A stretch of DNA of 64,000 bases from Succinivibrio dextrinosolvens (GTDB lineage Bacteria; Pseudomonadota; Gammaproteobacteria; Enterobacterales; Succinivibrionaceae). A program made the translations under genes and the position numbers. The notes beneath the pieces are model-generated. The model did not search any database, was not told the DNA's origin, and saw nothing but the letters and a program-made list of their open reading frames with translations. This document shows positions 2,528-35,450 of the stretch, piece after piece. The stretch spans positions 704,747-768,746 of the forward strand of contig NZ_CP047056.1 of the NCBI RefSeq assembly GCF_011065405.1, written 5' to 3'. Numbering within the stretch: position 1 is the stretch's first letter; every line of letters starts with the position of its first letter.

Positions 2528-2557
2528 ATCTGGAACAGTCCTGATTTATTCTTTAAA
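2528..2557 (+). promoter_or_regulatory. Shared island promoter motif upstream of the Y RNA candidate and TROVE operon
   Basis: ATCTGGAA at 2528-2535 is followed by 16 bases and TTTAAA at 2552-2557. The same arrangement occurs before five other transcription units in this window. With normal spacing, transcription would begin near 2563-2566, just ahead of the long stem that starts at 2571. Whether it is bound by a standard sigma factor with an activator, or by an alternative sigma factor, cannot be told. Confidence 0.6.
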
Positions 2558-2570
2558 CAAATGAGAGTTC

Positions 2571-2746
2571 AGGGTAAAGCTCTCTGAAGCGTAAAAACGG
2601 TGTAGCGTCTTATCTTATGATCTGTCCGACCATGTTCGGCAATCATCCGGCGGATTGTCTGATCCGGTCAGGCGTTACACTCGTGGGGTCGCTTACTTTT
2701 TATTTCAGATATCAGCGATCCATGATTTCTCAGAGAGCTTTACCCT
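2571..2746 (+). ncRNA. Candidate bacterial Y RNA (YrlA-like) upstream of the TROVE gene
   Basis: Positions 2571-2587 and 2730-2746 are perfectly complementary over 17 bases, closing a domain of about 142 nt. Inside it, GTGTAGCG at 2600-2607 pairs with CGTTACAC at 2673-2680 (one G-U pair). GATC at 2619-2622 can pair with 2661-2664, enclosing two small hairpins: 2626-2629 with 2636-2639, and 2640-2644 with 2653-2657. Bacterial Y RNAs have a long end-to-end stem bound by Ro60/Rsr plus a branched, sometimes tRNA-like, effector domain, and are usually encoded beside rsr. The location 50 nt before the TROVE gene and the promoter just upstream support the call. I could not match the Ro60-binding consensus with certainty. 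Confidence 0.6.
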
Positions 2747-2793
2747 AGCCTTTCATACTCAAAGCTCAGGCTATCCTTCAAAGAGGTGATTTG

Positions 2794-4278
2794 ATGACAT
2801 TCTATCCAAATGAAACCAGAACTCTTGCAGGCGATGAGTACAAAAGGATACAGCCAGGCTTTGAACATTCTTTTACAGGAGGATGGAGCTGTAATCTCTC
2901 GGCTATAACAGCGCTAAAACAGCATTTTGCCTCTGGAGTCTATAACGAGCCTAAGTTCTATTTAACATATGATGAGGACTTAAGAAAGTACTCTGAGAAA
3001 ATTATTTTAGATGCTCTTAGAGCTGATCCTGCTGCAGTTGTTAAGGTTGCAGTTGATCTTTATGAAAACTATGAAATGAGGTTCAATCCTTTTTTTCTGC
3101 TGATGTATATGCTTCATCCCTACAAAGACTGGAGATCTGACATAAGAGATGGTTTAAAAAGAATAACCAACAGTCCGATGGACATCAAAAAACAGTTTGA
3201 TCTCTATCTTTATTTCTATAAAAGCAAGAAAAGACTTCCCTCCTTCTTAAAAAGATTATGGAAGAAAAGAATTGAAAGCTTTTCAAGATATCAGCTTCAG
3301 AAGTACAGGAACAGAGCCAATCTCTTTGATATCATCAGGATATGCCATGCTCACAATTCAGATATTGATGAGCTGCTTCAAAACGGTAAACTTGAGCTTA
3401 AGGAAACTGAAATAACCTGGGAAGAGCTGCACTCCAAAGGTAAAAGCTGGAGTGAGATCCTTAATACAATAGAGGTTCCTTATCTGGCTCTTTTAAGAAA
3501 CCTCAGAGGAATTATCCGCTCCGTAAATGATCCTGTCCTCATTGATAAGATAATATTGAAGCTTAAGACATCAGGAGTAGCGCTTCAGCCTTATCGCTAC
3601 CTTATGGCCTATGAGGCGGTAAAAGATGAGGATAATCCCTTAAAAGACAAAGTTCTATGCTGTATCTCCTCTCTTCTTGAAAGCTCTTTAAGCAGTATGG
3701 AAATACTCAAGGGGAATACTCTTGTTTTATCTGACAACTCGCGCTCGGTAAATACAGAATGCGTGTCAAAAAATTCTGAAATTACCTGCCGTGATATTAA
3801 CAATCTGTCAGCGGTGATTACAGGCGTGAAATCAGATTACGCCAAAATCTATCCTTTTTCCGTGGATACCTTCGGTTATGAAGTATCCAAAAACAAAGAT
3901 GTTCTCTCTCAGGTGCTTGAGCTTGACAGACTCATAAGAAAAGATCCCTCCATGTTCCGCAGAACCGAGATTGAGAGATCTCTTTATATTGCGCTGTATG
4001 ATTCTGAGCTCGTATATGACAATGTCTTCATCTATACAGATGCACAGGACACCTCTTATTATTCCTGCGAGGAGGTCATAAAAAGCTATCGCAGAGTTAA
4101 CTCAAAACTTAATGTATTTGTGGTTCAGACTGCAGGCTATGCAACCTCAATTCTGCCGGTAGACTATTACAGAGTCGGAAGTCTTTGCGGTTTTACCGGA
4201 AAAGAAGTAACTGCGGCACAGAAGATGATCATGGAATGGGACGAGTTTGACTGTTTAAACGAGAGTAAAGAACTATGA
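2794..4278 (+). CDS. rsr: TROVE domain protein, Ro60/Rsr orthologue
   Basis: The 494-residue product resembles Ro60: a TROVE HEAT-like ring followed by a von Willebrand A domain. Diagnostic stretches are SFSRYQLQKYRNR and, at residues 208-240, TWEELHSKGKSW followed by LALLRNLRGI. The vWA part starts near residue 300. DNSRS at 314-318 fits the DxSxS metal (MIDAS) motif, and a second acidic site is at YTDAQ (D416). Ro60 proteins bind misfolded small RNAs in the ring cavity and Y RNAs on the outside. In bacteria they work with exonucleases or with RNA repair enzymes. The ATG at 2794 has GAGGTG five bases upstream and is preferred to a TTG one codon earlier. The gene is first in an operon with two recombination-type enzymes. 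Confidence 0.88.
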   Translation: MTFYPNETRTLAGDEYKRIQPGFEHSFTGGWSCNLSAITALKQHFASGVYNEPKFYLTYDEDLRKYSEKIILDALRADPAAVVKVAVDLYENYEMRFNPFFLLMYMLHPYKDWRSDIRDGLKRITNSPMDIKKQFDLYLYFYKSKKRLPSFLKRLWKKRIESFSRYQLQKYRNRANLFDIIRICHAHNSDIDELLQNGKLELKETEITWEELHSKGKSWSEILNTIEVPYLALLRNLRGIIRSVNDPVLIDKIILKLKTSGVALQPYRYLMAYEAVKDEDNPLKDKVLCCISSLLESSLSSMEILKGNTLVLSDNSRSVNTECVSKNSEITCRDINNLSAVITGVKSDYAKIYPFSVDTFGYEVSKNKDVLSQVLELDRLIRKDPSMFRRTEIERSLYIALYDSELVYDNVFIYTDAQDTSYYSCEEVIKSYRRVNSKLNVFVVQTAGYATSILPVDYYRVGSLCGFTGKEVTAAQKMIMEWDEFDCLNESKEL

Positions 4279-4382
4279 TTATAGAATCTGCTATTTTCAG
4301 TTAACAAAAACAGTTAAGCTCAGGATCGGTAAGTTTTTTTTTACTTAATAACTACTGCAATTTCAATTATAAAGAGGTGGCT

Positions 4383-4709
4383 ATGCACTCAACAGATGAA
4401 GGAACAGAGTTCATTGATATTCTTTTTGTGACTCCTGAAAAAGGCTTGGATTTCTGCTGTGAAATCTCTTCTACTGATTATGATCCCGATGCAATTCCAA
4501 CAGCAAGACTTTTCGATAAATCAGGAAAGAAATATCTTGGAGTAGTCAGAATAGATCATAAGCCTGAGAACGAAAATGACTTTGATGAGGTTGACGAAAG
4601 AATACCAGAGGATATCGTCAAGGCATTCTTCAGCTTTATATCTGTTGATAAAAACTGGGATAACTTTATTTCAGAATGGGACAGTATGCCTGAACATTAC
4701 GAGCTTTAA
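4383..4709 (+). CDS. Small acidic hypothetical protein between TROVE and AddB-like genes
   Basis: The product has 108 residues, is acidic and has no signal peptide or membrane segment. I do not recognise a family. The ATG at 4383 sits five bases after AGAGG and is preferred to an upstream GTG at 4377. It lies 104 bases after the TROVE gene and 64 bases before the AddB-like gene, on the same strand, so it is probably part of the operon. The 4279-4382 gap contains a T-run without a clear hairpin. The acidic C-terminus (DEVDERIPEDIV and following) and the small size would suit an accessory or inhibitor subunit, but this is a guess. Confidence 0.6.
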   Translation: MHSTDEGTEFIDILFVTPEKGLDFCCEISSTDYDPDAIPTARLFDKSGKKYLGVVRIDHKPENENDFDEVDERIPEDIVKAFFSFISVDKNWDNFISEWDSMPEHYEL

Positions 4710-4773
4710 GACCAGGAATAAGTCAGAACAGATAATTATCAGAGACTTTTGAACAGAAAATCTGAGGACATTC

Positions 4774-7518
4774 ATGAGGGAAGAAATATATCTTGCACCT
4801 AATGCAAACGCGAGCGAGCTTTTAAAGAGTCTCGCTCTGCATGGAAGAAACTGTTTTAATCTTAGGATTGTCAGTGCCGCGGAGCTTGCCCGTATAGCGC
4901 TTATGCGGTGCGCTGTAGCAGTTGATGAGGATTTTCTGAGCTCTAAAGAGGAAACCAGTTTTATCTTTAAGGCAGTTAATGCGATAAAAGAAAACTCTGG
5001 TAATAGCTGTTACCTTAAAAATCCATCTTATTCTGATATCAGGGAAATTAAGAGAGCGATTAGAACCTTAAGAAGTCTGGTGTCCTGTGATAATGAGGCT
5101 AATGATAAGGAAGATACCTTTGAAAATGAGGACAGTTATATTTCCTCAAGACTTTTAAAAGGAACCTTTAGGGAAAAGAACGAATTCCTTATCGGAGTCT
5201 ATCGTAAATATAAGGAGCTGCTGTTTGCAGAGAATAAACTTGATACAGTAGCCCTCATAAGAAAAGCCATTGAAAGATGCTCTCATCTTGAGGCCAACAT
5301 CGATTTTCATACCTTAAAAGAGTATCCGTTAAGTCCTCTGGAACAAGCTCTTATTGAAAAACTCTCCGGAAAGAAAGTTAATGATCTTAAAACAGATCTT
5401 AAGACTTTATTTAAGCTCAAAGATTCACCGCTCAATATTAAAAGCTTTAAAAACTGCTATGGTGCAGCAAATGAAGTTGAGACGATTCTTGATGATATAT
5501 ATTCAGGCAAAAAGCTGGATGAATGCACCGTTGCGCTCGCATCAGACTCGGACTACGCGCAGCTCTTCTTTGACTATGCCCTGCTTTATGATATCCCGGT
5601 ATCTTTCGGCTGCGGCATTCCGATTATCAATTCAAATCCTGCAAAGCTTTTAGAACTCTACCGCAAGTGGGCTTCAGGAGGCATCTTCAGTCCTCAGGCG
5701 CTACAAAACATGCTGAACAGCAGTGTATTTAACCGCTCAAAACTTGAAGAGCTGTATCCTCAAAAAGAGGAAAACTTCAGTTTTGGAGTCTTAACCGAGG
5801 TTCTCAGGGGACTTCGCCTTACCAATGATGAGGAGAAAAACCAGACACGACAGGAAAATTTCAGAAAAGCCCTTGCCGATGAGGAACAAGAACAAAACAC
5901 CCTGGATGATAAGTCAAAGGATTATCAGAGTTTAGAGAAAAAGAAATGCTGTATTCCCTATCTTGAAATACTTGCAAATGAGCTTTCCTTAACTCCTGAT
6001 GAATTTATAAAGAAATATGCCTATATCAGAAAGAAATCAGAAACAGAGTCACAAAGACTTCTGATGAGCCTTGATATGGTGGCACAAAAAATGTTGTGCG
6101 ATGAACTCAAGCTCCTAAAAGAATCAGGACTTGATAAGAACTCAGACGATCTTTATAAAAACGCTTTAAGTCTAAAGGTTCCACTTGGGGCTTCCCAAAG
6201 CGGGCATCTTCATATAACCGGCATAGACGGCGCTCTCTGTGCTGTAAGGAAAAACCTGTATATTGCAGGACTATCCGCATCCAAATACCCTGGCTCACCA
6301 AGACAGAATTACCTCATTTTAGATAATGATCTCAGTCAGTTTGGAGAGGAAGCTGAATATTTAAAAGCGAACAGTATCATAGAGCAGAAGAAAAACAAAC
6401 TTCTTAATCTGGTGGAAATTGCCTCATCACTAAAGACAGATATCTTTATATCCTTTGCAGGGCTTAATGTCTCAGAGCTCAAGCAGGAAAATCCATCATC
6501 ACTGCTATACAGACTGCTTAGAGACTGTTTTGGAAAAGAGCTTTCCGCACAGGCTTTAGAGAAAAATATCGTAAAAGTGAAGTATTTTGAGCCGGCAATT
6601 TCCTTCTCAAGAAAAATTCTTGAAGCCTACTGTGAGGACAGATCTATTGAAAACTCAAACAATGGAAAAGCCAGAGATAACACGCCAAAAGATAAGCTCG
6701 ATTTAAGCTGGGCTTTAGAAAAGGAGTATTCTCCAACCGCTCTGGAAAAATTCTTTAAATGTAAACGGCTGTTTATGTTCAGCAAGCTTCTGAATCTTCC
6801 TGAAGCTAATGAAGAGAATATTTTTGAAGTTATTGCTGCAACTGAACTCGGAACACTGGCTCACGCTCTTATGGAGCAGCTTGCAAACCAGAAAATATCC
6901 GAAGACAAATTTTTAGAACTCGCAGAAAAACATTTTGACAGATTCCTGTACTCACATCCTGCCCTCATTGATCATAGAGTAACAACCGAAAAAGATCAGT
7001 TTCTTGCCATGATGACAAAAGCCTATCAAATGGATGGAAATAATCGGAGTAAAGTTATTCTAAAAGAGGAGGATATTAGGGAAACCCACAGCACTGGGAT
7101 CAGGCTTCACGGCTATCCAGATCGTGTTGAAGAGCTTGAAGATGGCTCCGTAATGGTTGTTGATTACAAGACCTCAAAAAAGCAATCCCACAAGGAGGAT
7201 GATATTGACACCTGTCTTCAGATTTTAATCTATGCATATCTTTTAGAACTGCATGAGCATAAGGTTTCAGAGGGCGAATATCGTTATTTGAGATTAAATA
7301 AAAAAATAAAATGCAGATATAACGAAGAGATAAAAAAAGCCCTTGAAGATAGGCTAAATATTTTTAAGCAGCATCTATTGAAGGCTGATTTTCCGGATGT
7401 TATCTCTGAATCAAAGATAGACAGTACCATAGATAAAGACAAAATATCCGATGCCTGCAAATACTGTAAATACAGAAAAATCTGCACACCAGCACAGGGA
7501 GATGAAGACGATGAGTGA
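4774..7518 (+). CDS. AddB/RecB-like PD-(D/E)XK nuclease with predicted Fe-S cluster
   Basis: The 914-residue protein has a degenerate helicase-like N-terminal half and a C-terminal RecB-family nuclease. Expected catalytic residues are H697 (LAHALME), D783 (YPDRVEE), D797 and K799 (VVDYKTSK). Four cysteines, C663 in FFKCKRLF and C895, C898 and C904 near the end, match the iron-sulfur clasp of AddB nucleases, where one cysteine precedes the nuclease and three follow it. AddB pairs with AddA to resect double-strand breaks. The partner gene overlaps this one by eight bases, which implies translational coupling. Gammaproteobacteria normally use RecBCD for this job, so this copy inside a TROVE operon is probably a specialised or acquired system. 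Divergence from canonical AddB is considerable, so I call it AddB-like. Confidence 0.75.
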   Translation: MREEIYLAPNANASELLKSLALHGRNCFNLRIVSAAELARIALMRCAVAVDEDFLSSKEETSFIFKAVNAIKENSGNSCYLKNPSYSDIREIKRAIRTLRSLVSCDNEANDKEDTFENEDSYISSRLLKGTFREKNEFLIGVYRKYKELLFAENKLDTVALIRKAIERCSHLEANIDFHTLKEYPLSPLEQALIEKLSGKKVNDLKTDLKTLFKLKDSPLNIKSFKNCYGAANEVETILDDIYSGKKLDECTVALASDSDYAQLFFDYALLYDIPVSFGCGIPIINSNPAKLLELYRKWASGGIFSPQALQNMLNSSVFNRSKLEELYPQKEENFSFGVLTEVLRGLRLTNDEEKNQTRQENFRKALADEEQEQNTLDDKSKDYQSLEKKKCCIPYLEILANELSLTPDEFIKKYAYIRKKSETESQRLLMSLDMVAQKMLCDELKLLKESGLDKNSDDLYKNALSLKVPLGASQSGHLHITGIDGALCAVRKNLYIAGLSASKYPGSPRQNYLILDNDLSQFGEEAEYLKANSIIEQKKNKLLNLVEIASSLKTDIFISFAGLNVSELKQENPSSLLYRLLRDCFGKELSAQALEKNIVKVKYFEPAISFSRKILEAYCEDRSIENSNNGKARDNTPKDKLDLSWALEKEYSPTALEKFFKCKRLFMFSKLLNLPEANEENIFEVIAATELGTLAHALMEQLANQKISEDKFLELAEKHFDRFLYSHPALIDHRVTTEKDQFLAMMTKAYQMDGNNRSKVILKEEDIRETHSTGIRLHGYPDRVEELEDGSVMVVDYKTSKKQSHKEDDIDTCLQILIYAYLLELHEHKVSEGEYRYLRLNKKIKCRYNEEIKKALEDRLNIFKQHLLKADFPDVISESKIDSTIDKDKISDACKYCKYRKICTPAQGDEDDE

Positions 7519-10500
7519 TATAAGGTTGGAACAGGATATGCTTTCACGCAATAAAATCGTCAGTGAAACAAATAAGAATTTCTTTGTTGAGGCTGGTGCA
7601 GGTTCAGGTAAAACTACCATGCTGGTAAGACGCATGGTTGCCATGATCGAGGCAGGTATTCCCATTGAGCAGATCTGCGCGATTACCTTTACCAAGGCTG
7701 CTGCAGGTGAATTCTATGCTCGCTTTCAGAAACTTCTTATAGAAAGAAGTAATCAGAACAGTGATATTAAGAAAACAGGACAGGCGGGAGAACTGCCAGT
7801 ACCAACCGAGGAATCGGTAAAAAAATGTAGAGAGGCTCTTGAAAAAATCGATCTTTGCTTTATGGGAACCATTGACTCATTCTGCAGTATGGTTCTCTCA
7901 GAACATCCATCTGAAGCAAAAATCCCATCAGACTCTAAAATCATCAGCGATGAAGAGGTTAAAAATATCTACAGACAGCAGTTTGTAAAAATCTGCGCCG
8001 GAAATTATGGAGAGATGCTTCAAAAGAAAGCTCAAGACTTCAGCTCTTTCTACAAAAATGCAGAAGAGGTCTTCGCCGCAGGTGAAGCCATTCTCATGAA
8101 TAACCGTAATGTAGAATTTCAGGGAATAGAAGCTGTTGGTAAAGCAAATGCCGATGAAAAATTCGAGCAGGAAAAAGATAATCTTCTCTCAATGGTGGCC
8201 TTTCTTAAAGATCATCAGGAATTAAAATACACAAAAGAAAAAAACAACCTTGCAGCATGGAATGAGATTGAAGATATATACAGAAATCTTGATACTAAAT
8301 GGAGTTCAAACTTTGAATCTGTTCTCTATGCAATTGGGAAATTAAGCAAAATTCGACTGATTAAAGAAACCGATGATAACTACCCATATGAGCTTGGAGG
8401 ATTCTTTAGAAAAGGAGGCTCTTCTGGTTCATGGCTTGAATGTTGTGTCAAAGCAGAAAGTGATGATAATTCAGAATACATATATGAGAAATTACAGAAG
8501 TACAGATATCATATATCCATGTCATTTCTGACAGAGAGTGTTCAGGTTCTAGAAGAGAATATGAGAAGCAAGGGCTACCTGACCTTCTTTGACTATCTGT
8601 ACTATTTAAGAGAAATGCTCAAGACTGATGCCATGACCGGAGGAAAACTCATCCGCAATATCAGAGAGAGCCACAGATATTTTCTTATTGACGAGTTTCA
8701 GGATACCAATCCGCTGCAGGCAGAAATCTTCTTCTATCTTTCTTCTGATTCCCCTGCTTCACAGTGGAATAAATGTCAGCCTGAACCAGGATCACTCTTT
8801 ATTGTTGGTGATCCTAAACAGTCAATCTACCGTTTCAGAAGCGCGGATGTTGCCTCCTATCTAAAGGTCAAAAAACTCTTTTCAAAACCTTTTGGAGAAA
8901 ATCTGGCACTGACTCAGAACTTCCGTTCTACAAATATGCTCTGTAAATACTTCAATGTATGTTTTACCGAACTAATGCATAATGAAACAGAGAATCAGAG
9001 CAAATTTGAGGAAATTCCACCTAAGGGTGAAACTTCACCGGAGATTTTTCAGGGCATCTTTATAAATATTGATGAAAACCAGAAAGATGATACTGATACG
9101 CCTCAGATAGCAGGAATAATTGAAACTCTGGTTAATAACGAGAACTATCAGCTAAGGGATAATGATGGCATAAAAAGAAAGCTTCGCTACAGCGATATCA
9201 TGGTTATCACCTACGGCAAAAAAGCACTTAAGCCTATCATGACAGAGCTTTATAACAGAGGGATTCCTTCAAGAGTTGAGGGAGAAGTAAGCTTTGGTCA
9301 GAATGAGGCTCTTTGTGAGGTATTCAAGATTTATTCAGCTGTTTCTGATCTGGAGGATGCTGTTGCACTGTATGGAGCGCTTACAGGAAAGCTTATCGGT
9401 TTTAACCAGGACGATCTGCTTTACTTTATAGGCCATCAGGGAAAAATATCCTTAAAAGCATCGTTCAAAAAAGATGCCTTCAAAGATGAGATTTGTCTTC
9501 AGATCATAGATGAGATTGAAAAACTTAATGTGCTCTACCACAACAGTCTGAACCTGACACCTGCAGGACTGTTCTCAAAAATCATTGATGATTTCAGAGC
9601 ATATGAATACACAGAAGCAGAGAATCTTGAGGTGCTGTATTACGCTCTGGAGCTTTTAAGGAATGCTGAAATATCAGGAACCGTTGTAACATTTAAAGAT
9701 GCATCTGACTATCTGTATGAGCTTTTAAGTGGTAAATCCGGTGAGGAAAGATGTTTGAGTCTTATTGAAAATAAGGATGCAGTCCATCTTGCAAATCTTC
9801 ACAAAGTTAAGGGGCTGGAAGCTCCTGTTGTAATTCTGGCTGCAGCTAATAAACCAAATGATTCCCTTCGCAATCAGATCAGAGTTGAGCATAAGGATGA
9901 AACCTCATGTGGCTACCTGTTTGGACTCAAAAAAGAAGGAAAAGATACTGATGAAGAAAGCTCTAGATTCAGTAAAGGAAATTATTTTGAAAATCCTTGT
10001 TTCTATGACGAGAAAGAGGAAGAAAAAACAGCTCAGTCTGCAGAGATAGAAAGGTTACTGTATGTTGCAGCAACCCGTGCAAAGAATGCACTGATTATAT
10101 GTGAAAGAGTTGTCAAAGGGAAAACGCCTATATGGGAGCCTCTTCTCATAGATGGATTAACAGAAACTTTCAACATTGAAGAAAACGGATCCCTATCAGA
10201 ATCGTCTGATATAACAACAGACAGAGTCAAGGCGGAAAAACTCTACAATGATGCAGGTTGCTGTGTACTAAATAATCGTGACACCCTGAATGCGACTTAT
10301 GAGACTAAAACACCAAGCCATCTTTCTGTACCATCAAAACTTGCAGAGGATAGCGCTGAGACAGTAATTTCAAATGAAAGAACTGTTAATGTAGACTCTT
10401 CCAATAAAGCCTCCTACAGCAAAACTGTTCATAAATTCCCAGATTTACTTGGAACCATGACACACAGACTCATGGAAATGATTGTATCAACGAAATGCAG

Positions 10501-16948: not shown

Positions 16949-17147
16949 CGAATAAAACCTTCTCTTACTTATAACTCTCAATACTATTATACGATATAAC
17001 GAAAATAAACGTCTCTCCACCAAAACTTTTTTGAAACGACATCGCTCTTCTTAATTAAATTATCTTGTCGGTGAAATATAATCTCGATATTAGATAGTAC
17101 CAAAAGTCTTTATAAGATTTTTTTACGAAATCATAATACTTATCCGG

Positions 17148-17177
17148 ATCTGGAATAGTCCTGTTTTATCCTTTAAA
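17148..17177 (+). promoter_or_regulatory. Shared island promoter motif upstream of the 17290 gene
   Basis: ATCTGGAA at 17148-17155, 16 bases, then TTTAAA at 17172-17177. It is the closest match to the motif upstream of the Y RNA candidate; the two share GGATCTGGAA, AGTCCTG and CTTTAAA. It links an otherwise anonymous gene to the RNA repair genes. Confidence 0.6.
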
Positions 17178-17206: not shown

Positions 17207-17289
17207 TCATCTCTCCCCTTCTTCTTTTTCTTACTCATTACCTTTAAAGCACAACTGTTTAATGAATAACGTTCACTGAGGTGAAAAAA

Positions 17290-18807: not shown

Positions 18808-18860
18808 TTTTGCATTTTCTCAATAAAACACTGATGTTCTTTGGTGTCTTTATCGTAGTT
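18808..18860 (-). pseudogene. Leftover 3' end of an AAA-ATPase/PD-DEXK gene
   Basis: These 53 bases match the ends of the ATPase genes at 21270 and 23252 (C-terminal codons ... HQCFIEKMQN) and follow the YqiA gene in the same convergent arrangement. After 18860 the similarity stops abruptly and becomes WYL-gene sequence. This marks a deletion or recombination joint. Confidence 0.7.
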
Positions 18861-18862
18861 CT

Positions 18863-19083
18863 GGTCTTCGTCAGCTTGCCCTATGCCGTGATCTGGTAAA
18901 AAGTCTTCTGCCAAAAGAGGACTGGGAGCTGGTCAATATGTCCCTGCAACATGCAAAAACAAATCTTCCTCGCGCAGACTACAGTAGCTATCAGGATACA
19001 AACGTCGGCACACGTCTTACCCGAGGTCATATTGATTATCAGACCAAGCAACGTCAGCTTGCAGAGATTGAGAAGTGCATATA
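18863..19083 (+). pseudogene. Fragment of a second WYL-regulator gene
   Basis: About 220 bases are clearly similar to 31139-31360 inside the intact WYL gene, including the blocks encoding LVNMSLQ, LPRADYSSYQD and TRLTRGHI. Differences are scattered, roughly one base in nine by eye, so the source was a diverged paralogue and not a recent copy. Both ends are missing and there is no start. It shows that a second WYL module once lay here. Confidence 0.75.
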
Positions 19084-19294
19084 ATCCTCTCACCTTTCCA
19101 CATTGTGGAATTGCCTATAGGTCTTTGTTTGTCAGATACAAATTAACAAGTTGAGAGATTATTATTTGTCTTTAAAGGGGGGGATATCAGTCCGAACAAA
19201 GTCGCAGTAAATCATAAAAATAATCAGAACCAATCTGATTGTATAAGCTACGATGGTATAATATTCATAATGAATTGGACTTTAGGACGTGGTT

Positions 19295-25105: not shown

Positions 25106-27280
25106 TTAAAGTATATTGCCAGTTTCCTTCATATAAATATCTCTGATACCTATGATATCCACAGGCAGTTCCTCTGGATTTTTACTCTGAAGCCAGCGTC
25201 CAAAATCAGCACCACCTTTAGGAAGACTGTTTTTGAAGGACTCGCCCTTTCGGAAACGGCCTACCACGGTTCTCATCTGCTTCCAGTAGCGATAATATAA
25301 AGTCTTCAGCTTTACCTGAAAACCTGAAGAATCCTCAATAACAAAACCTTCCTCTTTTGAGGCACTGATATCTTCAGAATACTTTTTGTAAAAGCCACAA
25401 AACTCATCAAAACTGGTAAGGTTAAATTGCTCCTGCACCTTACACTTAAGTCCGATTTTCTCTGAAAGTTTCTTTAGCTCGGAGAAAGGTTTTTTCTCAT
25501 ACACAAGATCATTTTTCACAAGATCAAGCATAATGAGATCATCGCGTTCATAGCTAATTATATGAGGATCTTCTGTTGGACATATGCCTTCACACAGAAG
25601 AGTACAGTTGTTCTGAAAAAGATAATTCTTAAGCTCTGCAGCAGCCTCTGCACTGAGCATTTTTCCTACAAGCTCTCTGGCAATTTCAGCCATTTTGCCT
25701 TCAGGATTGGACTTGGTTGTTACAAAAAGCTCATCCTTGTACACAGAAATCAGAACAAGAAAGCCGTTTTCCTTTTTATAGACTGTTAAAGGAAATTTAA
25801 GTCTTTCCTTAAGATTGCCAAGATAAGTAAGGCGGTTCTCATCTATGTTGAAGAACTTGTCATAGCCTCTTGCCACAATCTTTAGGGCTCTGATATCCAC
25901 ATAAAGTCCTCTGGCAAGGACCGTCAGACTGTTCCAGCGGCTGTTGTTGAAAGCATCTCGGGTAAAATTAAATGATGACAGATCACCAAAAGACTTTTCA
26001 TCAATCAGTTTTGAACCACGAAACTCTTCAATGGCTTTTCCTACAAGCGCCATGCTGTCATCTTTATTAGCAGAGGCTTTTTCTTTAAATACAGAATTTC
26101 TGTACTCCAATGGATAAATACCATCAGAGTTTACTCTCACAGCTCTGAGGCAGCCACCCTGTTCAACCTGACCTTCCAGGTTGTAAACATTATCAAAGAG
26201 TTTTACAGGAGATTCATCAATATTACGATGTCCGAAAAACTGAATACAGTCAGCAGGAGCATGCTCATTCCACTGTCTTGCCACATTCATATAATCCTCA
26301 TAGCGCCCAACGCCTTTGATAAATTCTGAGGCATTGATAAAAACAGGATTCTTTTCTGTATAAGGAATACCACCATGGGACATGATAAGATGTTGCTTTC
26401 TTCCTCCTACAGTCATACATCCGCAGTAGCACTGGGCCAGCTTACGGTAAAAGGCCCGAAGCTGAACTCTGTCAAGCTTATCCTCAATTTCTGGCAGAGT
26501 TATGTACTTAAAGTAATGAGAGCGTATTACCTCATTATTCAGATAACACCTAATTGAGTTCTCATGATTACCTTCCAAAAGAACCACATTTTCTTTATTC
26601 ATGACAGATATCAGAAAATTCAAAACCTCAAGGTTCTCTTTTCCTCTGTCAAGATAATCGCCTAGGAACACATAAAGGTTCTTTTCAGAAAGATTGCCGT
26701 TATTCCTTAAAAACTCCTGCAGAACAGTATTGCAGCCATGAATATCACCGATGATATAAACATTCTCGTAACAGTCAAAATCATGTTCACGATATAATAC
26801 TTTAGATCTGAAGTCCTCCCTTTTAACCAGCTTAAGCCAGCCAGGAAGCTTCTGCGCCATCATTCTCTGATGCATTCTTCTGATGACATTCTCAGGAACC
26901 TTTCTAAAGCCACGCAAGGCGTTTCTTTCAAGGCATGTTTCCAAACTAACGTCAGAAAAATCCACACAGTAGATACGATATTTGTATTTCTCGGCAAGAT
27001 CTTTGTATTCAGGAAAATTATGATTACCGGTATGAGTCGCATCAACAACAGTAAACTGACCCTGCTGCATTCTTTTCTCAAGACAGGAAAATAGCAGATC
27101 CCAAACCTCTTTGTCGTTATTCTGGCTGATACAGCAATCGCCGTTTGGCAGCAGCACAGGCGAGCTTAAGGCTAATCTGAAATTATCAGCGCAGAGCGTA
27201 TATTCCTCAAGATTATTCTCATGGATAAAGTAAGATTTTCCTGAAGCAGGAATACCTCTTAACAGACACAGTATGCGCAT
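25106..27280 (-). CDS. Trifunctional RNA repair enzyme: polynucleotide kinase-phosphatase-RNA ligase
   Basis: The 724-residue product has three catalytic parts. Residues 1-165 are a P-loop kinase (GIPASGKS at 8-15). From about 170 there is a calcineurin-like phosphoesterase with GDIHG, GDYLDRG, GNHEN and SHGG. From about 440 there is a T4 Rnl1-like ligase with ARGLYVD, KIVARGYDKFFNI, the adenylated-lysine motif KENG near 500, CEG, EGFVIED and VKLK. Such enzymes heal RNA ends by 5' phosphorylation and 2',3'-cyclic phosphate removal, then seal the break. The ATG at 27280 has AGAGG six bases upstream; an extension to 27307 is not supported. It is divergent from the gene at 27578, and both have the island promoter motif. 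Confidence 0.85.
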   Translation of the reverse strand: MRILCLLRGIPASGKSYFIHENNLEEYTLCADNFRLALSSPVLLPNGDCCISQNNDKEVWDLLFSCLEKRMQQGQFTVVDATHTGNHNFPEYKDLAEKYKYRIYCVDFSDVSLETCLERNALRGFRKVPENVIRRMHQRMMAQKLPGWLKLVKREDFRSKVLYREHDFDCYENVYIIGDIHGCNTVLQEFLRNNGNLSEKNLYVFLGDYLDRGKENLEVLNFLISVMNKENVVLLEGNHENSIRCYLNNEVIRSHYFKYITLPEIEDKLDRVQLRAFYRKLAQCYCGCMTVGGRKQHLIMSHGGIPYTEKNPVFINASEFIKGVGRYEDYMNVARQWNEHAPADCIQFFGHRNIDESPVKLFDNVYNLEGQVEQGGCLRAVRVNSDGIYPLEYRNSVFKEKASANKDDSMALVGKAIEEFRGSKLIDEKSFGDLSSFNFTRDAFNNSRWNSLTVLARGLYVDIRALKIVARGYDKFFNIDENRLTYLGNLKERLKFPLTVYKKENGFLVLISVYKDELFVTTKSNPEGKMAEIARELVGKMLSAEAAAELKNYLFQNNCTLLCEGICPTEDPHIISYERDDLIMLDLVKNDLVYEKKPFSELKKLSEKIGLKCKVQEQFNLTSFDEFCGFYKKYSEDISASKEEGFVIEDSSGFQVKLKTLYYRYWKQMRTVVGRFRKGESFKNSLPKGGADFGRWLQSKNPEELPVDIIGIRDIYMKETGNIL

Positions 27281-27347
27281 GTTTACCTCTTTTTTTCTGA
27301 TTATCATCCAGGTTATGAATGATGCCAGGCATTTACAACCAATTTTA

Positions 27348-27377
27348 TAGATAGTGTAAGCCGTAAATATTCCAGAT
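27348..27377 (-). promoter_or_regulatory. Shared island promoter motif of the RNA repair ligase
   Basis: On the minus strand ATCTGGAA (27377-27370) is followed by 16 bases and TATCTA (27353-27348). Predicted transcription would start near 27341 and give a leader of about 60 bases. The -10 could also be the adjoining TAAAAT. Confidence 0.55.
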
Positions 27378-27435
27378 TGTAAAAGCTATTTTATGACTTC
27401 TAAAAAAATTAAAAATATTTTTAATACTTATCAGA

Positions 27436-27465
27436 ATATGGAATGTTCAGTTTTTATACTTTAGT
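27436..27465 (+). promoter_or_regulatory. Shared island promoter motif of the 27578 operon
   Basis: ATATGGAA at 27436-27443, 16 bases, TTTAGT at 27460-27465. It is one base off the core octamer seen elsewhere. It is back to back with the ligase promoter, with the two -35-like elements about 60 bases apart, so one regulator could control both. Confidence 0.5.
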
Positions 27466-27994: not shown

Positions 27995-28001
27995 CAATTC
28001 A

Positions 28002-28030: not shown

Positions 28031-28049
28031 AAACACAGGAGAGGCAGAG

Positions 28050-29015: not shown

Positions 29016-29073
29016 CTCAGAGGAGAAAGCATGAGTCCTACTTTCTGACGAAAAAAGAATGACAATTATCTTA

Positions 29074-29103
29074 ATCTGGAACAGTCATTCATTACACTAA
29101 CAA
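29074..29103 (+). promoter_or_regulatory. Shared island promoter motif upstream of the DIP1984 gene
   Basis: ATCTGGAA at 29074-29081, 16 bases, TAACAA at 29098-29103, with the ATG 25 bases further. The spacing to the start codon leaves a short leader of about 18 bases containing AGGAG. Confidence 0.5.
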
Positions 29104-29127
29104 TGAACGAAATAATAGGAGACAAAT

Positions 29128-29586
29128 ATGACTCTAGCAGAAGCATTAATGGAAAGAGCTGAGCTCAAGGCAAAAATCTCAGCAGTATCAGAGCGCATAG
29201 AAGACAACATTCTGGTGCAGGACAACGAAGCTCCTGGTGAAGATCCTAAGGAACTGCTTCCTGAGCTTACAGCTTCCATTCAGAGACTGAGAGTTCTGAT
29301 AAGTCAGATCAACAAGACCAACTGCTGTACTTTAATCGATGGAGAGAGTCTAACCGATCTGATAGCAAGACGAGACTGTCTTCTGCTTGAAATCAGCTCC
29401 TACAGGGACTTTACAGAAACCTCAAGACGCTCAACTGACAGAGCCCGCGGTTCTGAAATCAAAATCAGACCCTGCATTGAGGTTAAGAAGCTGCAGAAGA
29501 GGCTTGATGATCTATCAAAAGATCTGCGTGAGCTTGAAGTAAAGCTGCAGAAAGCCAACTGGAATACAGAACTCATCGAAGCATAA
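29128..29586 (+). CDS. DIP1984-family protein
   Basis: The 152-residue product matches the DIP1984 family throughout: LAEALMERAELKAKI at the start, NILVQDNEAPGEDP, then LISQINKTNCCTLIDG, LTDLIARRD and RARGSEIKI, ending in LQKANWNTEL. The family forms a small all-helical, coiled-coil-like protein; no biochemical function is known to me. It is often found near conflict or nucleic-acid repair genes, so its presence here fits the island theme. AGGAG lies six bases before the ATG. Length is standard, and it is intact. Confidence 0.85.
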   Translation: MTLAEALMERAELKAKISAVSERIEDNILVQDNEAPGEDPKELLPELTASIQRLRVLISQINKTNCCTLIDGESLTDLIARRDCLLLEISSYRDFTETSRRSTDRARGSEIKIRPCIEVKKLQKRLDDLSKDLRELEVKLQKANWNTELIEA

Positions 29587-29606
29587 CCAATTTCAGGAGT
29601 AGCGTT

Positions 29607-29750: not shown

Positions 29751-29779
29751 CGTGAGGGTGGGCAGAGGGATTTTTTTAT

Positions 29780-30274: not shown

Positions 30275-30299
30275 ATAACCAGAAGAGGAGCCAACAAAT

Positions 30300-30815
30300 A
30301 TGACTAGTATTGCTGTTATAGGAAGCAGAAATCCTACTCAAAACTCCGTCAAGGCCGTAAAGCTCTGGCTTGATAAATACTTGGAGCAGAATAGAGATGA
30401 CAAGGTTACCATTGTAACCGGAGGTGCCTTTGGCATGGATACAGAAGCGATGAAGTATGCCGTATTACGAAAACTAAGACTCAAAGTATTCCGTCCTGAC
30501 AAATACCATAACCAGAGATTATGCGAAGAGCTTAAGAACAATCCTTTGTGCGATATCATTCAGACTGATGTTGGATATCTTGAACGAAATACCATGGTCA
30601 TTGAGAATTCTGATCTGGTGGTAAGCTCTGATTATGGAAACGGTACTATTGATTCCATGGAAAAAGCCATTGCCAGAGGTCTTGAGGTATACGTAATTGG
30701 AGAGTATATCTCATCTGCAAAATTTAAACGTGCCCTCCCCGCTTCAAACATAGCTATAATTGATAAGAGAAAAGTGTTGGAAGGAGACTTCAGTTCAGTG
30801 CCCAAAGCTGACTGA
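30300..30815 (+). CDS. SLOG-fold (DprA/LOG-like) protein
   Basis: The 171-residue product begins with SIAVIGSRNPTQ, a Rossmann-like nucleotide-binding start. It continues with TIVTGGAFGMDTEA, the GG-x-G-x-D signature of the SLOG superfamily, and has a later NGTIDSMEKAIARGL, where the substrate-binding acidic residue is expected. SLOG proteins bind nucleotides, nucleotide signals or NAD-like ligands and recur in defence and nucleic-acid repair operons. AGGAG precedes the ATG by nine bases. It sits between an unknown gene and the WYL regulator and could sense or process a nucleotide signal, which is an inference. Confidence 0.8.
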   Translation: MTSIAVIGSRNPTQNSVKAVKLWLDKYLEQNRDDKVTIVTGGAFGMDTEAMKYAVLRKLRLKVFRPDKYHNQRLCEELKNNPLCDIIQTDVGYLERNTMVIENSDLVVSSDYGNGTIDSMEKAIARGLEVYVIGEYISSAKFKRALPASNIAIIDKRKVLEGDFSSVPKAD

Positions 30816-30877
30816 TGAAACTCCTCAGTAACTGCCATTCTTCTGACTAGAATGGCACTGCTATTTTAGGGGACAAT

Positions 30878-31882
30878 ATGCCGGAAAAATACGATCAGGA
30901 TGCAAGACCTGATGAGAAACTGCTCAAGCTCTTCATGCTGCTTTTATTCAATGACAAAGAATTCTCTCTAACCTATCTTGCTGAAACCATAAACTGCTCT
31001 AAGCAGACTGTGGCAAGACTTTTAAGACGCATAGATGAGAACTATCCCTGCCATCTTTTAGAAAGAAAATCTAACCGCCAGAAATTCTATCATCTGCAGC
31101 GACCATCCATGTCTTTTAAAACTGCAATTGATCCGGCAGGTCTGCGTCAGCTTGCCCTGTGCCGTGATCTGGTAAAAGGTCTTCTTCCAAAAGAAGACTG
31201 GGAACTGGTCAATATGTCACTGCAGCAGGCAAAAACCAATCTTCCGCGCGCAGACTACAGCAGCTATCAGGATGCAAATGTCGGTACCCGTCTTACCCGT
31301 GGACACATCAACTATCAGACAAAACAAAAACAGCTTGCTGAACTTGAAAAATGTATTTTAAACCGTAAAAGCTGCATGCTCTCCTACCAGAAAGATCTAA
31401 ACGGAGAAATAAAGAACTACGCTTACGCGCCTCAGATGCTGATTACCTTCCATGATTCTCTGTACGTCTCCGGCTGGATTGTATCCGAGGCAGGGCCAGT
31501 CAGAATACTAAAGGAACGTCCTGCAAAGTTTTCTGTTCACAGAATCACTGAGGTAACTGCGCAGAACCGTTCCACAGAAGAGCTCCCAGTAAAAGATCTT
31601 GAGGAGAATGCAGACTTCGGATTTTTAAGAGACGAGCCTTTTAAGACTAAGATCTGGTTCTCAAAGGAGGTTATGACCTATATCAGTGATCGAATCTGGA
31701 GTGATGATCAGAAGATTACTCCTCAGGAGGACGGAGGCATTATTCTTGAAATGACAGCACTGAGCAGAAGCGAACTTATCTCCTTTGTCCTGAGTTTTGA
31801 CTTTAAGGCACGCCTGCTTGAACCGTCTGATCTTGCAGCAGAAATTAAAGAGAGACTTTTAAAGACTCTGGAAAAATATTAA
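30878..31882 (+). CDS. WYL-domain transcriptional regulator
   Basis: The 334-residue product has an N-terminal winged helix-turn-helix (FSLTYLAETINCSKQTVARLLRRID), a central WYL-type domain (near residues 150-230) and a C-terminal WCX-like extension with LSRSELISFVLSF. WYL proteins bind ligands, often nucleic acids or nucleotides, and frequently control repair and defence operons. It ends 23 bases before the convergent cREC gene. It is the best local candidate to act at the shared TCTGGAA promoter motif, although that is untested. Fragments of a second, diverged WYL gene lie at 18863-19083. AGGGG precedes the ATG. Confidence 0.85.
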   Translation: MPEKYDQDARPDEKLLKLFMLLLFNDKEFSLTYLAETINCSKQTVARLLRRIDENYPCHLLERKSNRQKFYHLQRPSMSFKTAIDPAGLRQLALCRDLVKGLLPKEDWELVNMSLQQAKTNLPRADYSSYQDANVGTRLTRGHINYQTKQKQLAELEKCILNRKSCMLSYQKDLNGEIKNYAYAPQMLITFHDSLYVSGWIVSEAGPVRILKERPAKFSVHRITEVTAQNRSTEELPVKDLEENADFGFLRDEPFKTKIWFSKEVMTYISDRIWSDDQKITPQEDGGIILEMTALSRSELISFVLSFDFKARLLEPSDLAAEIKERLLKTLEKY

Positions 31883-31905
31883 AGCAAAAGAGGTACTGTC
31901 GATTA

Positions 31906-33351
31906 TTAGGCCTCATCTCCGACATGAGGCCAGTATCTGTCGATAGTTCGCTGCATATTTGCTCTGCCAACAGGATTTGCAGTATGCAGCACAATCTTGT
32001 AGAAAGTCTCTCTCGCACACAGCCAGTCTAGAAGCTCTATGGCATCACCTCCATCCTTTGCGAAATCTCCAAGATCATGATCAAGATTCAGCTCTTCAAT
32101 GGCGACAGAATGTTTCTCAAAAAACTTAATCCTGCTAATGGCCTCATTAACACTATGACAATGGATATATCCAGATGGAGCTTCTCTTTCATCATCAAGC
32201 CAGAGCTTTACACTGTCCGTCATAGAGAGAAGCGTTTCGTGGTCCACCTGAAAATAACGATCATGAGAAAGTTTCTGTTTTCTGTTCTCATCAGAGAAAT
32301 AATAGGACATTGAGGAATGAAACCAGCTCAGCTGCTGCTTAAGAGCCTGTTGTATCTCCAGATTTTTACAGTATTCAGAGGCAAGTAGCAGCTCTTCATC
32401 AGACACCGCAGAAGTATCTTTCTGTTTTAGTCCGAATATCCGTAAAAAACGATCTTTTCCAGTAAGAGGCTTTCTGTAGTACTCAAGATCGTAGTTATGG
32501 ACATTAACTTCTGAGGTCAGATGGTACTGACTGAAGCGATCAAAATAATAGCAGTAACAGTTTATATCTGAAGAATCTATGCCACTGGATACGGTCGCAT
32601 CTGGCATAAAGGATACAGCCACAAAAGGAGCTCCACTCTCATAATCACAGTTAAAGCCCTTAGTCTGACCTGCATATACACAGTCATCTGAATTAACCAG
32701 AATATCTCCAGGTTCAAAAGGCATTGGAAGGTATATTAACAGCTTGTCAGTTGTATAGTTAAATCGCTCCTGTGGCAGGCACTCATTGTCATAGATATGC
32801 ATAAGCTCTACCTCAGAGTTAAAGAAAGCTCTGACATACCTGTCAGAAAAATTATCATATATATTTTTTGTGCCTGAATAATAGTATTTGGTCAGCATAA
32901 CTACACCAACAGAGTCTCTGTCGTCCGCAGAGTAATCTTCCTTGTAGCCATTAACAGCAGTCTCAAAAGAAGGAAATCTTGCAAAAGAGTAAAACTCAGA
33001 GCAACCTTTCTCAAGAATACTCAGCTCATAATAGCTTCCTGGCTCCTCATTTTTCAGAAGACTGATTAGAATTCGGTAATTCTCAAGAATACCTTTTGTT
33101 AGCGCATGAAGACTCTCTGTCTCACTCTTATCTCCATCTTTTGGCTGCTCCACGAAAAAGTCCGGATGTCTGATGGTTACCTCTTCATCAGGCTCAGCAA
33201 GTAGTACTTCTAAGGCGAAAAGTTTTTCCTCAAGAGGAATACGATAGCATTTGTCGACAAGAAACAGCTTCTGCTCTCCACTGAGGCAGTAATCTAGCGC
33301 ATAAAGATATTCTCGGATGTCTCGGGAATTTACAAATCTTATAAAGTCCAT
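31906..33351 (-). CDS. Paralogue-family protein fused to a cyclic-phosphate-processing receiver-like domain
   Basis: The 481-residue product has an N-terminal region (DFIRFVNSRDIREYLYALDY) shared with the next two genes. Its C-terminal 95 residues form a receiver-like domain: LWLDDEREAPSGYI, LNLDHDLGD and HTANPVGRANM. That set matches the family called cREC, predicted to act on cyclic phosphates in RNA repair systems. The ATG at 33351 has GGAG upstream and lines up with the paralogues, so it is preferred to 33366. It is the last gene of a three-gene minus-strand operon and converges on the WYL gene. Fusion of the N-terminal family to cREC is seen directly; the function is an inference. Confidence 0.75.
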   Translation of the reverse strand: MDFIRFVNSRDIREYLYALDYCLSGEQKLFLVDKCYRIPLEEKLFALEVLLAEPDEEVTIRHPDFFVEQPKDGDKSETESLHALTKGILENYRILISLLKNEEPGSYYELSILEKGCSEFYSFARFPSFETAVNGYKEDYSADDRDSVGVVMLTKYYYSGTKNIYDNFSDRYVRAFFNSEVELMHIYDNECLPQERFNYTTDKLLIYLPMPFEPGDILVNSDDCVYAGQTKGFNCDYESGAPFVAVSFMPDATVSSGIDSSDINCYCYYFDRFSQYHLTSEVNVHNYDLEYYRKPLTGKDRFLRIFGLKQKDTSAVSDEELLLASEYCKNLEIQQALKQQLSWFHSSMSYYFSDENRKQKLSHDRYFQVDHETLLSMTDSVKLWLDDEREAPSGYIHCHSVNEAISRIKFFEKHSVAIEELNLDHDLGDFAKDGGDAIELLDWLCARETFYKIVLHTANPVGRANMQRTIDRYWPHVGDEA

Positions 33352-33384
33352 CAGCTCTCCATACACTGTTCAGTTCAGATTAGT

Positions 33385-34365
33385 TTAATGATCTAGTGTC
33401 TGCATCTGACAACGAAGTTCGATTGTCCTTACAGCACTGTAAAACAAATCTGGTGGAAGATTACCTTTAATCATTTCGCTTAAAGGAATAAGCTTGCAGT
33501 TTATACCTTCAAGCTCATCCTTATCTGCATATTCAAGATCATAATTAAGCCAGGAGTGATCCTTATAAAAACCATTTTCTACCGGAAAAAGACCCCAGTA
33601 CAGAATATCTGTACCATCGTGGTAATCTTTTAAATCCTCTTTACCGGCAGGAGTATATGAAAGAAACACAACATATTCCGGATGAATCGATCTCAAAAGC
33701 GCTCCGTATGGAATTCCCGCTTTTTTCACGATATCTCCTCGCTTAAACGGCATAGGTAAACTAATATGCATTGCAGACACATCCACACCGTACAAATTCA
33801 GACCACAGCCAGAATGACAGTCAACTGTAATAACTTCTGCATTCTTTGAAAGTATACATTCGGCTACATCGCCAACAGGACCATCCGTATCTTTAACACA
33901 TTCAGAGAATACATACTTTCTGATTCGATAGTAATCCTGAACCACTCCTATATCCTCATCTTCAGCATATTCTCTGATGGCTTCCAAGGCATTATCGTAA
34001 TTACTGTAAAAACCTATATGCTGAAAATCTGTTAAGTGCCTTTCTAAATGTTCAGCTTCGTAAAAGTAATCAGAGGAAGCCGCTTTTATAAAACTAAGTA
34101 TGGCTTTTTTATCTGCCAGATATCTTCGTATGAATTCGTGAACAGTAAGCCCCAGAGACTCGGAGAAAACAGGATTGGATATTGATGTCATTGGTGCATC
34201 TTCAGAAGAATTCAGTAATTCCTCAAGAGCTGCAAGTCTTTCATTTAGCGTTATAAAATCGCACATTACAATTAAGAAAAGCTGCTGTTCCACATTAAGC
34301 TTGTAACCGATATCATAAAGATACTTTCTGACATCACTTGAATTTACATATTTTATGCAGTCCAT
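33385..34365 (-). CDS. Paralogue of the cREC-fusion N-terminal region (copy 2)
   Basis: The 326-residue protein begins DCIKYVNSSDVRKYLYDIGYKLNVEQQLFLI and is alignable with the N-terminal parts of both neighbours. It lacks the cREC domain. A shared central block (LPMPFKRGDIV) lies in all three. No enzymatic motif is recognised. It is 33 bases from the following gene and 43 from the preceding one, so it is co-transcribed. The family seems to be duplicated in place; sequence identity among the three is moderate, so the duplication is old. Confidence 0.7.
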   Translation of the reverse strand: MDCIKYVNSSDVRKYLYDIGYKLNVEQQLFLIVMCDFITLNERLAALEELLNSSEDAPMTSISNPVFSESLGLTVHEFIRRYLADKKAILSFIKAASSDYFYEAEHLERHLTDFQHIGFYSNYDNALEAIREYAEDEDIGVVQDYYRIRKYVFSECVKDTDGPVGDVAECILSKNAEVITVDCHSGCGLNLYGVDVSAMHISLPMPFKRGDIVKKAGIPYGALLRSIHPEYVVFLSYTPAGKEDLKDYHDGTDILYWGLFPVENGFYKDHSWLNYDLEYADKDELEGINCKLIPLSEMIKGNLPPDLFYSAVRTIELRCQMQTLDH

Positions 34366-34408
34366 TTCAATCCCACCTTTCCATCTTGCTAATGGTCTCT
34401 CAGATCTA

Positions 34409-35401
34409 TTAGTTAATGCCTAATTCTTTCAGGGAACTACTGAAAGCCTGAAGATATTCATCTTCACGTTCTTTTTCACGCTGAAGCTCTATAAGTCTTA
34501 CAGCGTTGTAAAACTCATCTGCTTCTATTTCACCTTTCATAAATCTGCTAAGCGGAATCAGCTTAAGATCAGCACCGGATAGCGAAGCTGGATCTGCATA
34601 TTCAAGGTCATAGCAAAATAAATTTCCATAACCACCTTCAAAGCCGTTTTCCAGAGCATAAATACCGTAGAAAAGAATATCCCCCATGGAGCGACCAGTT
34701 TTGTAATCTTCCATCTTTTCAGGATGGTAACCAAGATAAACTCCATTAATATCTTTGCCTAAAGTTACAATATCTCCTTTTTTAAAAGGCATTGGGATAC
34801 CGACATACATTCCCTCAATACCAACTCCGTAGGTTTTACAGTTATGGTCATAAACATAGATATTCATCAGATCAAGATTTTTTGAAAAAAGACAGTAGTT
34901 AGAATCTGACAGGTAGTTCTCTCCATTTCCTTCCTCCTCATCATCGAAAGATAATTTATCGATGCGTAACCTATCCTCAGGATCCATGCTATATTCCTTT
35001 GAATAATTTCGTATGGCATCAAAACATGCCTTATAGGATTTAAAACATTCTATAAGCTCTGGCTCTAATTTCCCCTCATGCTGAATTCTTACCTGATAGA
35101 AGTATCCACTGGTATCAGCTTTCATAAAGGCGGTCATGTTTTTTACGTCACTTATATATCTTCTGATAAATTCATGGGAGGTAAGACCAAAAGTTTCCTG
35201 AAAACTCATATCGGTAATGGAAGTTAAAGGTAGAGCATCTGAGGATTGAAGATATTCCTCTAAAGACTTTACTTTCTCATCAACGCTTATAAACGGGCAG
35301 GATAAGACAACAAAAATTACATGATCGGCACTAAGTTTGTAGTCAATATCGTAAAGATACTGTCTAACATCTTTTGAGTTAACATACCTTATAAAGTCCA
35401 T
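34409..35401 (-). CDS. Paralogue of the cREC-fusion N-terminal region (copy 1)
   Basis: The 330-residue protein starts DFIRYVNSKDVRQYLYDIDYKLSADH and shares the IPMPFKKGDIV block. The ATG at 35401 has GGAGG six bases upstream. It matches the paralogue starts, so an extension to 35476 is rejected; that extension would also run through the promoter motif at 35421-35450. As first gene of the three-gene unit it carries the promoter. A short charged C-terminus (REKEREDEYLQAF) may be a coiled coil. Function is unknown. Confidence 0.72.
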   Translation of the reverse strand: MDFIRYVNSKDVRQYLYDIDYKLSADHVIFVVLSCPFISVDEKVKSLEEYLQSSDALPLTSITDMSFQETFGLTSHEFIRRYISDVKNMTAFMKADTSGYFYQVRIQHEGKLEPELIECFKSYKACFDAIRNYSKEYSMDPEDRLRIDKLSFDDEEEGNGENYLSDSNYCLFSKNLDLMNIYVYDHNCKTYGVGIEGMYVGIPMPFKKGDIVTLGKDINGVYLGYHPEKMEDYKTGRSMGDILFYGIYALENGFEGGYGNLFCYDLEYADPASLSGADLKLIPLSRFMKGEIEADEFYNAVRLIELQREKEREDEYLQAFSSSLKELGIN

Positions 35402-35420
35402 ACTGAACCTCCGCATTTTT

Positions 35421-35450
35421 CTAATAGAATAAAAGAGGTTCATTCCAGAT
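35421..35450 (-). promoter_or_regulatory. Shared island promoter motif of the cREC operon
   Basis: On the minus strand ATCTGGAA (35450-35443), 16 bases, TATTAG (35426-35421). The -10 is close to the sigma-70 consensus. GGATCTGGAATGAACCTC and TTTTATTC resemble the 2528 and 17148 sites. Confidence 0.6.

Follow-up and report, generated by a model that had tools for sequence, protein, structure and literature searches.

The subject of this report is a promoter signature shared by six transcription units in a gene island of Succinivibrio dextrinosolvens, and the window analysed is a stretch of 64,000 nucleotides of NZ_CP047056.1, a genome of 3.47 Mb in a single contig. Each of the six promoters carries the 8-mer ATCTGGAA, or at one site the variant ATATGGAA, and 11 bases after it a -10-like hexamer, TAYNCT. 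In the first promoter (2516-2552, plus strand) ATCTGGAA is at 2528-2535, the -10 TATTCT is at 2547-2552 and the predicted start is at about 2559, and it precedes a Y-RNA-like structured RNA (2559-2760, plus strand; fold z -7.5) that lies in the leader of a gene for a TROVE (Ro/Rsr-like) protein (2791-4278, plus strand). The Pfam TROVE match of this protein (E 3.7e-4, 20.2 bits) is under the cut-off of 23, the leader had no Rfam match at the gathering threshold, and in the closing stem of the leader one compensatory pair change was seen by eye in two related genomes, G030 and G031. The second promoter (17136-17172, plus strand; ATCTGGAA 17148-17155, -10 TATCCT 17167-17172) precedes the gene at 17281 and a UPF0227 gene. 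The next two promoters are that of the RNA ligase (27353-27389, minus strand; ATCTGGAA 27377-27370, -10 TACACT 27358-27353), which drives a kinase-phosphatase-RNA ligase gene (25106-27307, minus strand; Pfam AAA_33, Metallophos and RNA_lig_T4_1), and that of the 27578-28050 genes (27424-27460, plus strand), where ATATGGAA at 27436-27443 is followed by the -10 TATACT at 27455-27460. The fifth (29062-29098, plus strand; ATCTGGAA 29074-29081, -10 TACACT 29093-29098, start codon 29 bases on) precedes a DIP1984/DUF6847 protein (29128-29586, plus strand; Pfam), the first gene of a unit that runs towards a WYL-WCX regulator (30878-31882, plus strand; Pfam WYL and WCX), our proposed activator. The sixth (35426-35462, minus strand; ATCTGGAA 35450-35443, -10 TATTCT 35431-35426, ATG at 35401) belongs to the 34409-33385-cREC unit, whose last gene (31906-33366, minus strand; Pfam cREC_REC, E 4e-22) encodes a protein with a cyclic-phosphate-processing receiver domain.

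The original prediction, made on these letters alone, had an AT-rich hexamer follow each 8-mer at a spacing of 16, and on checking, all six sites were found at the coordinates it gave and with that spacing. The shared 8-mer was retained, but the AT-rich hexamer was not, since it is the less conserved of the two and begins 5 bases further on than the hexamer given here, its first base being the last of TAYNCT. TAYNCT looks like a sigma70-type -10, and with this reading GGAA stands at about -27 to -24 and GGA at -27 to -25. An alignment of 36 sites (23 once near-duplicates were removed) was gapless from -43 to -7 in 36 of 36 and the distance from GGA to TAYNCT was constant, although the sites were chosen via a fixed-spacing pattern and the conservation of the core letters is partly due to the pattern used for picking them. 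Conservation was also seen at positions that this first pattern, ATCTGGAA-N11-TAYNCT, left free, namely A at -41 (33/36), T at -36 (33/36), C at -35 (29/36), Y at -23 (36/36), T at -20 (30/36) and T at -13 (32/36). A -35 element could not be detected, as the best TTGACA match averaged 2.52 of 6 for spacings of 16-18 and 2.60 for other offsets.

Extracytoplasmic function (ECF) sigma factors use promoters with a GGAAC-like -35 that lies 16-17 bases before the -10, and the original prediction had offered, as one of two mechanisms, that the motif is the -35 element of such an alternative sigma factor. The GGAA of TCTGGAA does resemble GGAAC, and the genome has one ECF-like sigma gene, L185, which was named by eye. 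However, only 11 bases separate GGAA here from the conserved -10, instead of 16-17, which is too near for a -35 element. Sigma70-family genes did not track the motif either: among 19 genomes of the genus there were 3 to 6 per genome, with five in 13 of them, the six genomes that have both motif and WYL protein had 4 or 5, genomes with the motif did not differ in number from those that lack it, and no island-specific sigma70-family factor was found. A general RpoE, moreover, would not be restricted to genomes that carry the WYL gene. We therefore regard an ECF promoter as very improbable. A sigma54 (-24/-12) promoter was set aside, as there is no conserved GC at the required distance; sigma54 genes were not searched for.

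The 8-mer by itself is a weak signal, as it has 108 matches in the window at up to one mismatch compared to 88 expected, and its 10 exact matches are divided between five at the named promoters and five elsewhere. It is in combination with the -10 that the signature stands out. The first pattern has 6 matches in the window at up to one mismatch, 5 of them exact, whereas shuffled sequences gave a mean of 0.32 and a maximum of 3, and none of 100 shuffles attained 6. A test matrix was then built from nine sites in G030 and G031 whose genes have no orthologue in the window; one of these sites (G031 2242) precedes a 28-30% identical paralogue of 34409/33385. With this matrix the six window sites took ranks 1 to 6, at 37.7 to 16.9 bits, and the seventh match scored 4.8. 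In 20 simulated windows the five largest maxima were 10.2 to 15.9 bits, so that the weakest of the six sites, the RNA ligase promoter at 16.9 bits, is barely over the top simulated maximum. The earlier statement that the motif does not occur before the ATPase genes of the window was borne out, there being six matches above 8 bits and no seventh; the DUF3990 unit, of which the same had been said, was not identified among the window open reading frames (ORFs) scanned. Over the whole genome, where the surrounding genes are mechanically called ORFs, the exact first pattern occurs six times, five times in the window and once at 2212542, and a strict pattern, WTCTGGAAYN9YTAYNCT, which was tightened from sites already found, occurs exactly seven times. 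All of these exact matches (6/6 and 7/7) are upstream of genes, and the reversed control pattern in the strict-pattern search gave 9 matches, 0 of them at zero mismatch.

The signature was also found before five more units of the same genome, all scoring at least 30 bits with the full matrix, four of them being training sites too. These are a DUF7230 gene (2212542, exact signature; orthologue sites in G030, G031 and G045), a 136-residue protein (670581; orthologue site in G031), an AAA ATPase (702348; orthologue site in G030 at 27.5 bits and a site at a 41% identical relative in G042) and two DUF285 proteins, one at 702620 with orthologue sites in G030 and G031 and the other, of 602 residues, at 673837, the only one of the five without an orthologue site elsewhere. 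The target at 2212542 was at one point taken to be a noncoding RNA, and this was rejected because a 56-residue DUF7230 gene lies downstream that the 70-residue limit of the ORF caller had missed. A further 30-bit site at 313300 is 267 bases before a gene. As judged from these sites the regulon is not confined to the island, and the signature covers at least eleven units.

In relatives, the signature recurs before orthologues of the 34409 gene in G030, G031, G043 and G045, of DIP1984 in G030, G031, G045 and G046, of the Y RNA/TROVE unit in G030, G031 and G045, of the 27578 gene in the same three genomes and in the same ATATGGAA variant as in the window, and of the RNA ligase in G031 and G045. 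The G045 ligase frame is split into two overlapping pieces in that assembly (L121 8142-10413). In a family sample of 56 genomes, 6 with an island-type WYL protein of at least 89% identity and 50 others, the strict pattern had 29 matches, found in 6/6 of the former, and 5 matches in 4/50 of the latter, of which 3 lie inside ORFs (Fisher's test per genome, uncorrected for kinship, p 6.5e-6). Among the 29 matches, 27 are before a gene, one is before a gene remnant (G031:C41) and one (G043:C148) has no nearby gene on the same strand. The TROVE gene was found in 4/56 genomes, all four of which have the motif and the WYL gene, and the enrichment of the strict pattern arises in part from the joint occurrence of target genes and WYL. 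The leaders of DUF7230 genes are a cleaner test of the association. This gene was found in 13 of the 19 genus genomes but in neither G043 nor G046; the motif is in its leader in 4/4 of the close-WYL genomes where the gene was found and in 0/11 genes of nine other genomes, the G037 leader having only a look-alike with the hexamer one base off. As a separate observation, the remnant at G031:C41 (L192 11943-12278), in which 84 residues of the 34409 gene align at 95% identity behind an exact site, adjoins the genes for 2-hydroxyacid dehydrogenase and DAHP synthase, which in the window border the island, and G031 has the 34409 operon elsewhere (C43), so the island seems to have moved from, or been lost at, this spot.

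Taken together, the signature, its geometry and its recurrence in relatives support the shared regulation of the six units that had been predicted, and the regulon itself is well supported at the level of sequence. This leads to the question of which protein reads the motif. The island WYL protein scored 23.2 bits with Pfam WYL (cut-off 21.8) and 52.7 with WCX (cut-off 23.9), and its nearest named relatives, at 92% protein identity, are from S. dextrinosolvens ACV-10 and DSM 3072. A fragment of a WYL gene at 18857-19087, between the UPF0227 and ATPase genes, shares 87% identity with the island protein over residues 86-162 and has an internal stop. A profile of the WYL clade searched against solved structures found chains of PafC and DriD and no BrxR or CapW. 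In a fold search with a model built from seven sequences, DriD and PafBC were above BrxR and CapW, but this is weak support since the model was poor (predicted local distance difference test, pLDDT, 58.6; pLDDT 40 for a single-sequence model) and the template modelling (TM) scores to DriD were about 0.2. The WYL repressors BrxR and CapW have been reported near defence islands, and a protein of this kind that occupied the site between -43 and -17 would likewise block polymerase, so that the motif could be an operator from which a ligand releases the repressor. We consider this unlikely, as these promoters are without a -35 and hence would be weak even when unrepressed, and as the searches favoured PafC and DriD over BrxR and CapW. 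The geometry is the same as that of SiwR and PafBC, WYL activators described below, and this favours activation by the island WYL protein through the -26 element, the other of the two mechanisms in the original prediction.

Several observations weigh against this assignment. No site lies directly before the island WYL gene, the nearest being 1.8 kb upstream, with a terminator-like hairpin (30833-30857) and a gap of 194 bases in between. A palindrome seen by eye around GATC or -25 was dropped after a column-permutation test (p 0.26), and the motif is thus not significantly palindromic, whereas SiwR and DriD, reported to be homodimers, bind palindromic sites. The -10 hexamer has C at -8, which is a preference of sigmaS. 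With one mismatch allowed, 30/35 genome matches of the first pattern are inside ORFs and 5/35 between them, and 11/17 matches of the strict pattern are inside ORFs; the 35 are mostly noise. The original prediction had proposed to compare matches inside genes with those upstream, and with the consensus patterns alone the exact matches agree with it and the one-mismatch matches do not, so a loose matrix would give the result that it had named as refuting. The six close-WYL genomes are near relatives of one another and the Fisher test takes no account of kinship, so the association statistics are inflated. The best matrix score had a median of -4.0 at 29 WYL loci and of -1.45 at 40 control loci, which confines the link between motif and WYL to this clade, and a family-wide rule from WYL to motif was rejected since most distant WYL genes have no motif nearby. 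Lastly, because motif and entire island occur together in one clade, this co-occurrence alone cannot single out WYL, and the activator could be another protein of the same distribution, e.g. a chromosomal regulator or some unknown product of the island. The product of 28050 weakly matches a DNA-binding domain (E 0.089), and island proteins of unknown fold remain candidate binders. On the other hand, WYL is the sole clear regulator family among the scanned island products, and two genomes without TROVE and ligase have a more distant WYL together with a high-scoring site: G042, where an AAA gene near the 45% identical WYL is preceded by a site of 37.8 bits, and G037, with a 41% identical WYL. 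Another activator is therefore about as improbable as the repressor, if not slightly more so.

Paralogous WYL genes (34-37% identity) in G000, G031 and G045 are 1.0-1.5 kb downstream of ATYCGGAATGATNATTANYTATATT in the same geometry, the G000 frame having one stop. A second promoter variant associated with WYL, with TATATT for its -10, occurs in these three genomes before small-ORF units (L116 5488, L120 7689, L119 1291 and L059 471). A search with the variant motif was dropped as support, because among the 56 genomes it recovered only its own four source sites, which speaks of rarity and is not independent support.

On balance, we put at roughly 0.7 the probability that the six sites serve as promoters of a single regulon whose activator is the island WYL protein acting at a -26 element. 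Within this reading, the WYL protein is the likely activator, as judged from the geometry and its distribution, and the signal is a guess. The targets, which as a set suggest that the regulon may respond to RNA breakage, are the Y RNA/Ro-like unit, the kinase-phosphatase-ligase, the cREC operon, the DIP1984-SLOG-WYL unit, DUF7230, the AAA ATPase and the DUF285 proteins, and it is the ligase, the Ro-like protein with its Y-like RNA and cREC that suggest broken RNA as the signal, by analogy to RtcR. In the mechanism that we infer, from binding and activation (rather than repression) to sigma adaptation and the identity of the ligand, polymerase with the housekeeping sigma would recognise the TAYNCT -10 of a promoter without a -35, and the WYL protein, once bound to its signal, would read TCTGGAA with weaker contacts that extend to about -43 on one side and -17 on the other, and would stand in for the -35 in the contact with sigma domain 4. 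It may also amplify its own unit. RNA ends, e.g. 2',3'-cyclic phosphate, are one possible ligand and single-stranded nucleic acid is another. In PafBC an arginine pair, R-x-x-R, binds single-stranded DNA, and in this WYL clade the pair appears, by eye, as an H-R pair with one arginine, which leaves room for a ligand other than single-stranded DNA.

In the DUF7230 mRNA a long hairpin (z -5.3) spans the 3' end of the reading frame and encloses the stop codon. Such hairpins were located at L087 1574-1790 and L091 1294-1464, several DUF7230 proteins have a C-terminal AA, and in G041 the DUF7230 gene is convergent with and next to a 57% identical WYL gene (L125 13648-14926). A comparable hairpin is reported for arfA mRNA, where cleavage or termination yields a non-stop mRNA (PMC8012679). 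The hairpin at the stop codon and the basic composition of the protein thus hint at a role in ribosome rescue. DUF7230 as an ArfA homologue was rejected, as ArfA was absent from the matches of a profile search against solved structures, the best of which was a ClpC chain (E 0.07), and the rescue role is only a lead. A wider and tentative proposal is that the system is an RNA-damage counterpart of the DNA-damage responses under WYL control, in which a single WYL protein would sense broken RNA, a dispersed regulon with -26 GGA would respond, and DUF7230 would possibly rescue ribosomes.

If the reading is true, the regulon links the healing and ligation of RNA ends with Ro/Y RNA, the processing of cyclic phosphates and the small basic DUF7230. 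Bacterial RNA repair is known mainly from single operons, e.g. rsr-rtcBA under RtcR, whereas here there would be an RNA-repair regulon of many units with its own promoter class and with genes beyond the island, and the -26 mode of WYL activation would be extended from actinobacteria to a gammaproteobacterium. It would also provide target lists for uncharacterised families (DUF7230, DIP1984/DUF6847, the DUF285 proteins and the AAA ATPase) and a possible route to the WYL ligand. In open-licence full texts we found no published WYL regulon for RNA repair, Ro/Y RNA or RNA ligase.

Among known systems, RtcR, which is reported to sense 5' tRNA halves that end in 2',3'-cyclic phosphate, resembles the proposed activator in that it controls a Ro-like protein, Y RNAs and an RNA ligase in rsr-yrlBA-rtcBA; it is, however, a CARF-domain activator of sigma54 for a single operon with RtcB/RtcA (PMC7790460), whereas Succinivibrio has a WYL protein, a sigma70-like -10 and a kinase-phosphatase-ligase. 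No RtcR-type families were seen in Pfam among 30 window ORFs; rtcB, RtcR and sigma54 were not searched for genome-wide. SiwR of Mycobacterium smegmatis is likewise a WYL activator; upstream of the -10 its promoters share a GGA at -26 on which activation depends, and scrambling of the -26 region abolishes induction. It is described as acting through an imperfect palindrome of 19 bp on neighbouring dinB-like genes upon genotoxic stress (PMC10693628), unlike the Succinivibrio motif, which is not significantly palindromic and covers at least eleven units including RNA-repair genes. DriD of Caulobacter activates a sigma70-type polymerase from sites at a constant distance to the -10 that overlap a poor -35, as seen here, but its pseudo-palindrome, ATACGAC-N7-GTCGTAT, is another sequence with another regulon (PMC12340889, a preprint), and the present motif did not differ from permuted columns in palindromicity (p 0.26). 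Mycobacterial PafBC consists of WYL-WCX proteins and has a non-palindromic -26 motif, many target promoters and the housekeeping polymerase (PMC11804915, PMC6789036), the last as we propose here, and it is reported to insert between sigma4 and promoter DNA (PMC11804915). It is a heterodimer that is activated by single-stranded DNA, to which DriD also responds (PMC11804915, PMC12340889), and that serves DNA repair (PMC11804915, PMC6789036), unlike the Succinivibrio island with its one WYL gene and RNA-repair targets. With its WYL and WCX domains, a -26 element whose spacing to the -10 is constant and a poor -35, the island system agrees with the -26 WYL activators; this type of activator is already known, and it is the predicted RNA-repair regulon that would be the new part.

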